Below are positions 1,462 through 14,594 of a stretch of 14,609 bases of DNA, one piece after another. Below the pieces are notes generated by a model, which was given only the letters and a program-made list of their open reading frames with translations, was not told the origin of the DNA and ran no database searches. Both the position numbers and the translations under genes were made by a program. The DNA lies in the NCBI GenBank assembly GCA_016200385.1, contig JACQEV010000050.1:1-14609 (forward strand). Direction: 5' to 3'. Position 1 is the stretch's first letter. Every line of letters begins with the position of its first letter. The stretch is from Candidatus Methylomirabilota bacterium. Its GTDB lineage: Bacteria > Methylomirabilota > Methylomirabilia > Methylomirabilales > Methylomirabilaceae.

Positions 1462-1504
1462 CACGATCTGCTTGATCACGTTGTGCAACCGACAGGAGGA
1501 GACG

Positions 1505-1807
1505 ATGGCACTGAAAGAGTTTGCAGGAGTGTACTACGAGGAAGCGTTAGACGAGAAGACCCGCCAGTTGGTCGCCATGGCGGCGATGGCCGCGGCCGGC
1601 TGCACCTCGTGAGTGGGGGCTCGCTTCGCGGCCGCGAAGCAAGCTGGCGCGAGCAAGGCGGAGATCATGGAGGCGCTCTACCTGGCCATGCGCGCTTCCG
1701 CCAGGGCCGCCTGGACCACTATCAAGAACGGGATCGAGGGGATTGACGCAGAGGTCAAGGCGATGAAGACGCAATACGGGGCCGAGACAGCCGCTGCTCA
1801 CCGGTGA
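1505..1807 (+). CDS. AhpD-like (carboxymuconolactone decarboxylase family) selenoprotein, CxxU motif, in-frame UGA at 1610-1612
   Basis: A 100-residue AhpD/CMD-fold protein if the TGA at codon 36 is read as selenocysteine. The frame opens at ATG 1505, which sits 5 nt after a strong AGGAGG site. It reads MALKEFAGVYYEEALDEKTR, then a helix AMAAMAAAGCTSU, then VGARFAAAKQAGASKAEIM and on to TGA at 1805. AhpD-family thiol peroxidase/disulfide reductases have EK(T)R followed by GCxxC and then an AG-A---EI helix. Here everything aligns and the UGA falls exactly on the second, resolving cysteine (Cys33-Thr-Ser-Sec36). The AhpD proton-relay His, four residues after the second Cys, is Arg40. A SECIS-like hairpin follows the UGA. 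The only start after the UGA is GTG 1613, which lacks a ribosome-binding site and the catalytic half. First gene of the operon; its stop overlaps the next start (GTGA). Selenocysteine insertion is inferred, not shown; a nonsense-mutated pseudogene is the alternative. Confidence 0.85.
1610..1645 (+). promoter_or_regulatory. Bacterial SECIS-like hairpin adjoining the UGA selenocysteine codon
   Basis: Right after the UGA (1610-1612) the RNA can form a 7-bp perfect stem, GCTTCGC (1623-1629) with GCGAAGC (1634-1640), closed by a GGCC loop. A lower helix (GGCT 1618-1621 with AGCT 1642-1645, one G-U) extends it across one C-A mismatch. The loop begins 17 nt after the UGA and has G in its first two positions, in line with the published loose bacterial SECIS pattern read by SelB. 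The stem also encodes part of the protein, as bacterial SECIS elements do. Confidence 0.7.
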
Positions 1808-2529
1808 ACCCAACCAGCGCAGCGCGTCAAGTCGCCACGCTCTGCCGACGAATCATCACGTGTCGACGATGCCCGCGCTTGGTCCGGCATCGCGAGCGGA
1901 CAGCCCGCGAGAAGGTGCGCCGCTACCGTGACTGGGACTACTGGGGGCGGCCGGTTCCGGGGTTCGGTGACCCGGCCGCGCGCCTGCTCGTCGTGGGTTT
2001 GGCACCCGCCGCCCACGGCGGCAACAGGACCGGCCGCATCTTCACGGGGGACCGAAGCGGGGAATTCCTGTACAGAGCCCTCTACAGGGCCGGCTTCGCC
2101 AATCAGCCCACTTCGACCAACCGCGACGATGGCCTCCGTCTCACCGACTGCTACATCACCGCAGCGGTCCGGTGTGCCCCACCCGACAACAAGCCGAGCC
2201 CGATCGAGCTTTCTCGCTGCCGCCCCTTCCTCATGGAGGAGCTGGCGCTTCTCCGGCATGTCCGGGTGATCGTGGCCCTGGGGCAGATCGCATTTCGCGC
2301 GTGTCTACAAGCTCTAGAAAAGCGCGGAGTTCAGCTTCCGATTCCGAGGCCTCGCTTCCAACATGGACAAGTCGCGTCCCTTCAGAGTGGTTTCGTGCTC
2401 ATCGGGTCGTATCACCCGAGCCAGCAGAATACGCAGACCGGCAGGTTGACCGACATGATGTTTCAGCAGATCTTCACAATCGCGAGGCGCCATCTTGATG
2501 CGCAGTCCCGCCGAGCGGCTACGGACTGA
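1804..2529 (+). CDS. Family 5 uracil-DNA glycosylase (UDGb type) with 4Fe-4S cysteines
   Basis: DNA repair enzyme that excises uracil, and in this family other deaminated bases, from DNA. The 241-residue product has the family-5 motif GLAPAAHGGNRTGRIFTGD (residues 65-83), which lacks the polar Asp/Asn activating residue of other UDG families, and a C-terminal motif HPSQQNTQTGRLT starting at His204. Four cysteines at 20, 23, 124 and 139 (CRRC, VRC, RCRPF) match the cluster ligands of thermophilic and actinobacterial UDGb. The start is GTG 1804, overlapping the selenoprotein stop by 4 bp (GTGA), so translation is probably coupled. An ATG start is not available without losing the N-terminal cysteine pair. 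Its 3' end overlaps the HAD gene by 32 bp. Confidence 0.9.
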   Translation: MNPTSAARQVATLCRRIITCRRCPRLVRHRERTAREKVRRYRDWDYWGRPVPGFGDPAARLLVVGLAPAAHGGNRTGRIFTGDRSGEFLYRALYRAGFANQPTSTNRDDGLRLTDCYITAAVRCAPPDNKPSPIELSRCRPFLMEELALLRHVRVIVALGQIAFRACLQALEKRGVQLPIPRPRFQHGQVASLQSGFVLIGSYHPSQQNTQTGRLTDMMFQQIFTIARRHLDAQSRRAATD

Positions 2530-13091: not shown

Positions 13092-14594
13092 TTAGCTCTC
13101 TTGGGTCCTGTGCCTTCGCTGGGCCCCCCGGACAAGGAGTAGCTGGGCGGCGACGGTCAACAGCGCCGCTATGGGAGGGTACAGAAAGCTCTTCGCCGAA
13201 GCGGGCTCCTCAAGGATCAGGTAGTACCAGGCAGAGACTGACATCTTGTTCCCGGACTCTCCGTTTCCCCCGTCCCAGGCCAGGAATGCGACCGGTATAA
13301 ACCGGCCGCGCTTAAAGCCGGGCGCGCCCTTCGACTTGGGAGCCAACGGCCTGGTGATCAGCAACCGATACTGTCCCTCCTGATAGATCGCCGCCCCGGT
13401 CACTCCTGCCGCCCCTGCCGCAGGCTGTTCCTGCACCCGCCCCAACCCGGCCGCGGTCAGCTCATCGACCCGATCCGCATCCGATCGCCAGCGGATCAAG
13501 TAGACCGGATGATCCGAATCCCCCATGAGGAAATAGGGCCTTTCGCTCCCTTCGAGCGGTTGCGCCGGAAACTGCAGCGCGAGGGCGTCCGGAGCCGCCT
13601 GCGCCTGGTCACCGGTCGCTCGCTTGCCGGCGGTGGGGTCGTCCCACGCGACAAGAAAGGCAATCTCCTTGTCGTTATAGGCCACTTTTACCGATACCAT
13701 GTCGATCGAGGGCGTGAAGTTCCTCGGATCAACGATCACCTGCCCGACCAGGGGGAAATTTGTCGCGGAGATCTGTTCCCAGAGTGGATCACCGGGGGTC
13801 GTCGGGAGAGCGCTCCGCATGAGCTTGGCTGCCAAGACGGTGCCGTAGTTCGGGCCGTCGGGACCGAGGGACACGACGTAGTTGCTGAGATGCCAGCTCT
13901 GTTCGGCGTCGATCGATTCGGAATAGGCGGGCATGGGCGTCCCAGCAATGCCGGTGCTGAACCGTGTGTAGATCGCCTTGGCCGAGCTGCCGCCGCGGAA
14001 GTTCCACCGCTTCGTCAAATCGGCAGGGCGGTTTCTATTCCCCCACTCATCCTTCAGCGTGGGTGCCGATGCGCCGTCGGCTCGGCCCTCCTTCCCGTGG
14101 CAGGTGAAACACTCGAGGTCCTGGTACAGTTGGCGGCCTTTGTCCAGGCTCTCCTTCGAAGCCCCGACTTCCTTGCCGACTTGGATCGGCTTCCCCGCTC
14201 CTTCGCTCTTGAAGCGGTCCGAAAAGTTCTTGATGTACTGGACCACGGCGCGCCTCTCCCGTTCCGGCAGCGTGTTCCAGCCCGGCATCGAGGTCCCCCG
14301 CATCCCCTCGGTAACAATCGAGAAGAGATCGTCATCTGTGGGCAAGCTGCCGCTCGGCGTTGAGCGGATTTTGTAGAGGCCACGGGTGAAATCGCGTGGG
14401 CGCGGATCGAGGAATGGCGCAGCAACTCCGTCGCCGCCCCCCTCAAACCCATGGCAAAAGGCGCACCGCTTTTCGTAGACCTGTTTTCCCAGCTCCATAT
14501 CGGCCTGCTGGGCCCAGGCATCCGAAGAAAGCGCGAGGTGCGCGGTGCGCGGTGCGCGGTGCGAAGAATCGTGCACTCTTTCTGCGATGTTCAC
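13092..14594 (-). CDS. Dihaem cytochrome c fused to an ethylbenzene-dehydrogenase-type haem b domain, membrane-anchored
   Basis: A 500-residue exported electron-transfer protein. Two c-type haem sites, CAFCHG (44-49) and CFTCHG (162-167), each have a following axial Met (SMPGW, Met103; TPMPAY, Met221). Residues about 250-460 (e.g. VKVAYNDKEIAFLVAWDDP, ALQFPA, AFLAWDGGNGE, AWYYLILEE) match the EB_dh domain that holds haem b in gamma subunits of type II DMSO-reductase enzymes such as ethylbenzene dehydrogenase and the NxrC/NarI-like subunits of some nitrite oxidoreductases. A C-terminal helix YPPIAALLTVAAQLLLVRG (472-490) anchors it. Its job is probably to pass electrons between a periplasmic molybdoenzyme or quinol pool and soluble cytochromes. 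GTG 14594 is nominal: the frame is open to the window edge and the expected hydrophobic signal is poor (only LALSSDAWA before a likely AWA cleavage), so the true start may lie outside. Confidence 0.85.
   Translation of the reverse strand: MNIAERVHDSSHRAPRTAHLALSSDAWAQQADMELGKQVYEKRCAFCHGFEGGGDGVAAPFLDPRPRDFTRGLYKIRSTPSGSLPTDDDLFSIVTEGMRGTSMPGWNTLPERERRAVVQYIKNFSDRFKSEGAGKPIQVGKEVGASKESLDKGRQLYQDLECFTCHGKEGRADGASAPTLKDEWGNRNRPADLTKRWNFRGGSSAKAIYTRFSTGIAGTPMPAYSESIDAEQSWHLSNYVVSLGPDGPNYGTVLAAKLMRSALPTTPGDPLWEQISATNFPLVGQVIVDPRNFTPSIDMVSVKVAYNDKEIAFLVAWDDPTAGKRATGDQAQAAPDALALQFPAQPLEGSERPYFLMGDSDHPVYLIRWRSDADRVDELTAAGLGRVQEQPAAGAAGVTGAAIYQEGQYRLLITRPLAPKSKGAPGFKRGRFIPVAFLAWDGGNGESGNKMSVSAWYYLILEEPASAKSFLYPPIAALLTVAAQLLLVRGAQRRHRTQES
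14537..14563. repeat. Heptanucleotide tandem repeat (GGTGCGC, nearly four copies) in the 5' coding region
   Basis: GGTGCGC occurs three times in full and once as GGTGCG without a break. The unit is 7 bp, so loss or gain of one copy shifts the reading frame of the cytochrome gene. It encodes the HRAPRTAH segment ahead of the presumed signal cleavage site. Confidence 0.85.

Follow-up and report, generated by a model that had tools for sequence, protein, structure and literature searches.

A predicted AhpD-like selenoprotein with a CxxU motif in Methylomirabilota, encoded across a conserved in-frame UGA

A short gene on a contig of a Candidatus Methylomirabilota bacterium (JACQEV010000050.1, assembly GCA_016200385.1) is interrupted by an in-frame UGA where related proteins of the AhpD/CMD superfamily carry the second cysteine of a CxxC motif. 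Does this codon end a gene, or is it read as selenocysteine (Sec)? A first-pass annotation, made from the DNA letters alone, had proposed a selenoprotein with a CxxU active site. We analyzed the whole stretch of 14,609 nucleotides, here called the window, which is contig C220 of the draft genome G000 (2.2 Mb, 411 contigs, 81% complete). The proposal is supported by the conservation of the UGA, by cysteine-containing homologues and by a hairpin resembling a selenocysteine insertion sequence (SECIS). Judged from these sequence comparisons, which strongly support recoding of UGA 1610-1612, the gene very probably encodes a small redox selenoprotein, with a predicted AhpD/CMD fold, made by Sec insertion at this codon.

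The in-frame UGA and its conservation

Translation of the window with TGA 1610-1612 read as Sec (U36) gives a 100-residue frame (1505-1804) that starts with MALKEFAGVYYEEALDEKTRQLVAMAAMAAAGCTSUVGARFAAAKQAGAS... and contains the motif C33-T-S-U36. The strong ribosome-binding site claimed for the gene is present (Table 1). The Pfam CMD family PF02627 matches residues 8-66 with 51.7 bits (8.7e-14; gathering cut-off 23), so the similarity to AhpD/CMD proteins extends over both sides of the UGA, as had been stated. Standard gene calling begins a fragment at the predicted GTG, but with 64 residues rather than the 65 expected.

Table 1. Positions of the selenoprotein gene, its signals and the adjoining gene in the window
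Feature	Position	Strand	Remark
Ribosome-binding site AGGAGGA	1494..1500	+	From the sequence; ATG 1505 follows 4 nt later
Predicted AhpD/CMD-like selenoprotein gene, 100 residues, Sec at position 36	1505..1807	+	Stop codon TGA 1805-1807
Codon for C33, first residue of C-x-x-U	1601..1603	+	Column invariant in alignments A1 and A3
In-frame UGA (U36), second-Cys position of CxxC	1610..1612	+	TGA in 43/43 loci counted; Cys in P0116-P0119
Fragment from GTG 1613, 64 residues, called by standard gene calling	1613..1807	+	Annotation artefact
SECIS-like hairpin GCUUCGC-GGCC-GCGAAGC	1623..1640	+	Loop 1630-1633, starting 17 nt after the UGA
Larger stem-loop that includes outer helices	1613..1650	+	1613-1615 with 1648-1650 and 1618-1621 with 1642-1645 in the fold of the window sequence
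Next gene, uracil-DNA glycosylase superfamily	1804..2529	+	GTG start overlaps TGA stop (GTGA)

A search of 95 genomes of the phylum gave matches at E <= 1e-6 in 59 of them. All 46 best rows, from 45 genomes (E <= 5.5e-16), contain an in-frame TGA, in line with the earlier claim that this is no random stop; one row (G046) shows two TGAs, the second of which is the terminal stop. Placement of the TGA at this very codon was confirmed in the DNA of 43 loci and of L023, L072 and L074. Complete frames with start and stop codon were found for 41 of the 46 copies. Three (L070, L071, L073) are interrupted by contig ends, and two (L072 in G016, L074 in G074) have kept the UGA and the second half, with unrelated sequence replacing the N-terminal half. 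The remaining 17 rows comprise 16 distant matches (33-47% identity), two of which have a TGA (G043, G049), and the copy of G034, rearranged ahead of the RFAAAK stretch, which contains neither the N-terminal half nor a UGA. A named genome collection contributed 43 loci. Forty have TGA here, five of them in records titled as other groups; of the other three, two from Planctomycetota carry TGC (Cys) and the third is the rearranged copy. These loci are largely the same contigs as in the 95-genome search, and the two counts are not independent.

Within the window's genus the distribution is patchy, with copies in 3 of 15 genomes. The first-pass annotation had named close relatives with a degenerate gene and other lesions as evidence against its proposal; the copies of the two congeners with the gene, G006 and G011, are complete and share the UGA without any further lesion. 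The protein of locus L079 is 93% identical to the window protein over residues 1-96. Over the 24 codons preceding the UGA, same-genus pairs show 5-7 synonymous changes and no amino acid change; in codons +13 to +62, after the hairpin, their ratio of nonsynonymous to synonymous substitution rates (dN/dS) is 0.13-0.21. Both halves belong to one selected protein. The downstream dN/dS of 0.96 between the window and L022 was set aside because there is a one-residue gap in this region (alignment A1) and the comparison was aligned without gaps.

Database proteins reflect how the codon has been handled by gene callers. Of 114 proteins from a first search, 51 stop exactly at the UGA, 54 begin at most 3 residues from it, 6 span it and 3 are other cases; 105 of the 114 thus start or end at the UGA. 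A wider profile search retrieved 1418 proteins; among the best 120 of these, 114 were newly listed, and 109 of the 114 again start at most 3 residues from the UGA. A conserved redox gene of 45 of the 95 genomes of a phylum from soil and groundwater, according to the record titles, is in this way hidden as two meaningless fragments. The best 120 also include five homologues that are single chains and have Cys where the UGA stands: P0116 (GCTSC), P0117 and P0118 (GCADC), P0119 and P0120. When the window protein was aligned with Cys homologues, C33 and U36 both fell into invariant columns, and Cys stands at the UGA position in P0116-P0119 and in loci L120 and L121, precisely as claimed for the second cysteine of CxxC. 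Altogether, 11 listed proteins span the position, five with Cys and six, all from the first search, with other residues (W in three, and R, L and G). The R, L and G probably represent errors or private mutations; by eye, P0019 (R) looks identical to the product of the L069 gene apart from that residue.

A hairpin downstream of the UGA and the selenocysteine machinery

A stem of 7 bp with the loop GGCC begins 10 nt past the UGA. It lies within codons +4 to +10 (RFAAAKQ), whose synonymous sites are almost invariant across 43 loci (CGC, TTC, GCG, GCC/GCT, GCG, AAG, CAA), whereas elsewhere in the gene most four- and sixfold-degenerate codons vary by about 0.5-1.5 bits. These counts leave out L071, a contig-end partial second copy in G017, and never included L072 and L074. 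The consensus across sequences is GCUUCGC-GGCY-GCGAAGC. All seven pairs can form in 40 of 42 sequences (L070 and L071 were left out because of contig-end truncation); 2000 synonymous-codon resamplings gave 10.8 such sequences on average and 19 at most. A stem-loop directly 3' of the UGA with a G in a small apical loop is what a SECIS calls for, and position, loop and synonymous constraint all agree with it. The hairpin can be regarded as SECIS-like and, by this comparison, adds to the support for recoding. The consensus set could be used for training selenoprotein finders in the phylum.

Several caveats apply to this interpretation of the hairpin. For a single sequence the resampling gave P = 0.27 for the stem, and the 42 sequences are related, a kinship that the statistic ignores. 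The stem-loop of the window is no more stable than dinucleotide shuffles (z -0.48), probably because the sequence is GC-rich. In the covariation count (alignment A2; 42 rows, 28 distinct) the inner stem is too constant to be informative. The outer helices differ between lineages and show no significant covariation; in A2 one outer pair has changes on both sides, not above shuffles. It was because shuffle stability and covariation gave no signal that the synonymous-site test was chosen. RNAalifold recovered six of the seven inner pairs and two other pairs, without covariation.

The genes for Sec synthesis and insertion, which the first-pass annotation had suggested searching for, were found in G000 for selA, selB and selD: selB on C304 (383 bits), selA split into two contig-end pieces (C305, model positions 1-254, 351 bits; C411, 248-453, 239 bits) and selD on C210 (400 bits). 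The selD gene has an in-frame UGA of its own (LSHGAGUACK) with a hairpin loop 14 nt downstream; of its frame readings, only the SelD frames (LSHGAGUACKISP) were meaningful, the others being noise. Neither a covariance model nor the DNA of the G006 gene detected the remaining gene of the set, selC for tRNA-Sec, in this draft of 81% completeness. A tRNA-Sec match over the Rfam cut-off was obtained in 13 of 14 congeners searched, the exception being G011, and ARAGORN assigned a UCA anticodon to the tRNA-Sec of G009 (L057).

Among the 45 genomes with the UGA gene, selD is present in 45, selA in 39, selB over the cut-off in 39 and a tRNA-Sec match in 37; G051 has an additional contig-end selB piece under the cut-off. 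For all 95 genomes the corresponding figures are 92, 83, 84 and 79. A looser selB figure of 88 was not used; the weaker rows of the selB search, which score around 190-200 bits in frames of roughly 400 residues, probably represent EF-Tu. Because almost the whole phylum has the system, the machinery is permissive rather than discriminating, and co-occurrence with the Sec genes was dropped as a test. Four gene-bearing genomes of family f7 lack selA, selB and tRNA-Sec, and all four keep selD. In this family the three missing loci usually lie within a few kilobases (e.g., on C80 of G037), so that one assembly gap could have removed them together.

According to the mechanism that we propose, SelB would bind the hairpin immediately 3' of UGA 1610-1612 and deliver Sec-tRNA(Sec) to the UGA, and the ribosome would insert Sec36 and complete the 100-residue protein.

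Four genomes of the window's genus, G014 (L128), G007 (L129), G001 (L130) and G008 (L131), have a further gene resembling tRNA-Sec, which is 98 nt long and scores 54-58 bits with RF01852. It accompanies the canonical gene in three genomes and is the sole match over the cut-off in G001. In the aligned genes L128, L130 and L131 the anticodon is UCA; ARAGORN reported nothing for L128, L129 and L131 and an unassigned tRNA for L130.

Relatives, possible function and alternative explanations

AhpD-like selenoproteins have been described before, and the first-pass annotation was right in placing them in metagenomic surveys. A CxxU "distant AhpD homolog" (NF041047, GSU3128 family) is listed as a prokaryotic selenoprotein family (PMC13188914, PMC9312934), AhpD-like 1 and 2 and CMD-like selenoproteins of ocean metagenomes have CxxU in COG2128/PF02627 proteins (PMC2398784, PMC13188914), a SECIS was shown for an AhpD-like selenoprotein (PMC1088965), and a metagenome-assembled genome with 63 predicted selenoproteins was reported for the phylum (PMC13188914). 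The listed titles and abstract openings on Methylomirabilota, Rokubacteria or Methylomirabilis in combination with selenoprotein or selenocysteine did not mention the gene.

Like the window protein, the GSU3128 family (NF041047) consists of small single-domain CMD proteins with CxxU. It is the best NCBIfam match of the window protein, at 51.8 bits far below the cut-off of 110; L082 scored 43.7 and the Cys forms P0116 and P0117 scored 50.2 and 53.9 bits. The nearest of the proteins scored, the distant L117, also remained under the cut-off (75.2 bits). Where L117 has His at +4 after Sec and Glu 12 residues ahead of C33, the window protein has Arg and Gln. All 16 members of A1 match NF041047, and all 16 match the AhpD-domain part of NF041537 (arsenite methyltransferase/AhpD domain selenoprotein) and of MduS (NF045649). 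Judged by model names and lengths, the latter two are methyltransferase-domain fusions, whereas the window protein is free-standing and far under their cut-offs. RclX (PDB 7y4r), which has Cys at the Sec position, and TTHA0727 (2cwq) share 30-40% identity with it over about 60-76 residues, and AhpD of Mycobacterium tuberculosis (1gu9) belongs to the same superfamily. The ocean-metagenome AhpD-like and CMD-like selenoproteins were compared by description rather than sequence. We regard the protein as a new subfamily member of the established CxxU AhpD-like selenoproteins, and it adds a subfamily beyond the reach of the nearest NCBIfam model at its cut-off.

In AhpD of M. tuberculosis the catalytic pair lies in CxxC, the second Cys being catalytic, and Glu118 and His137 form the proton relay. 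By alignment with CxxC homologues, Sec occupies the second position of this pair in the window protein. Sec36 would replace the second, peroxidatic-type cysteine, and Cys33 could serve as the resolving thiol, with a selenenyl-sulfide probably formed while peroxides or disulfides are reduced, as the family suggests. By analogy, the protein probably functions as a selenol-based thiol peroxidase or reductase. The relay residues of AhpD are not retained: Gln21 and Arg40 stand at the places of the Glu and His, as placed through the 7y4r alignment rather than by AhpD directly, and the Arg is invariant in A1. This substitution, together with neighbours that vary between the lineages examined, lends some weight to the possibility that Sec insertion is real and the product is a selenol-based disulfide reductase or carrier without the AhpD proton relay, not a peroxidase. 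The Cys homologues P0116-P0118 also lack these relay residues, so that their loss is not tied to Sec, and we lean away from this possibility while regarding it as a serious one. With similar reserve, we tentatively suggest a separate, almost Sec-only, free-standing AhpD-like subfamily of Methylomirabilota and a few other lineages, in which Gln and Arg have replaced the relay Glu and His and whose selenol chemistry may differ from the AhpD peroxidase cycle.

Explanations that dispense with Sec fare worse. Translation might stop at the UGA and restart at the adjacent GTG, yielding products of 35 and 64 residues that perhaps form the fold jointly. The codon after the UGA, a possible start, is indeed GTG in all 39 sequences with Val there. 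This GTG pairs in the outer helix, however, which could account for its constancy, and other lineages have Ala codons (GCN; several lineages), GTA (L112) or CTN (L117 and L118) instead. As the Cys homologues are single chains and a two-peptide gene would leave the frozen hairpin unexplained, we consider this arrangement very unlikely.

Reading of the UGA as tryptophan, by a reassigned code or by near-cognate readthrough, would fit the W at this position in P0002-P0004. These residues presumably come from the use of a code in which TGA means Trp. L082, to which P0002 is 93% identical, has TGA in its DNA, and P0002 carries an extra terminal W where the L082 gene stops at TGA, which fits an artefact of the translation table. 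Five other spanning homologues have Cys, UGA terminates other genes here, such as that of the glycosylase (2527-2529), and both a SECIS-like hairpin and the Sec machinery are present. A tryptophan is thus extremely unlikely. A pseudogene, in which a nonsense mutation or sequencing error has made the UGA a genuine stop, agrees with the gene calls that end there and with the decayed look of some copies (G016, G074 and G034 without the N-terminal half), but is hardly credible given the same UGA in 45 genomes, the lack of any other stop before the end in the 41 complete copies and the purifying selection on either side.

Neighbouring genes and further observations

Genes for a LigD 3'-phosphoesterase, a HAD protein and a GHMP kinase flank the predicted selenoprotein gene in the window and, judged by eye, in G006 and G011. 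Because stop and start codon overlap (GTGA, 1804-1807), translation of the glycosylase gene may be coupled to the selenium-dependent reading of the UGA. Such coupling would not be general: the gene order is preserved in G006, but the selenoprotein and HAD genes of G011 lie just 143 nt apart, leaving no room for the glycosylase gene, which is missing. The neighbourhood was also considered as a clue to function and abandoned; only 2 of 10 neighbours in other lineages had Pfam domains (a methyltransferase in one genome, an ABC protein in another), and no link was drawn. In the database protein P0029, the C-terminal part of the selenoprotein is joined to a portion of a downstream-type glycosylase, apparently through a deletion.

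An AhpD-like gene with two in-frame TGAs, at both cysteines of CxxC (U-x-x-U; AGULPUSKNRFAVAKQ), was noticed in G043 (L076 350-622; C330 6849-7121), with a hairpin after the second TGA. It was the sole match with two TGAs when the 95 genomes were searched with it. Besides the window gene, this search gave 39 more distant AhpD-like matches (E 1.7e-9 to 8.6e-7), of which 38 contain a single in-frame TGA and the other (G022) a TAA. The single one of the 39 that was inspected, L077 (G049 C34), has its TGA in N-T-H-U, with Asn replacing the first Cys.

Elsewhere in the window, the minus strand encodes a free-standing LigD 3'-phosphoesterase domain (825-1337; TIGR02777, 186.8 bits, cut-off 144) and a protein with cytochrome c domains and an ethylbenzene-dehydrogenase-like haem domain (13092-14594; PF13442, PF00034, PF09459). 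On the plus strand, 8522-8724 matches the actinobacterial small RNA family Ms_IGR-5 (RF02471) with 65.1 bits, in a genome that is not actinobacterial.
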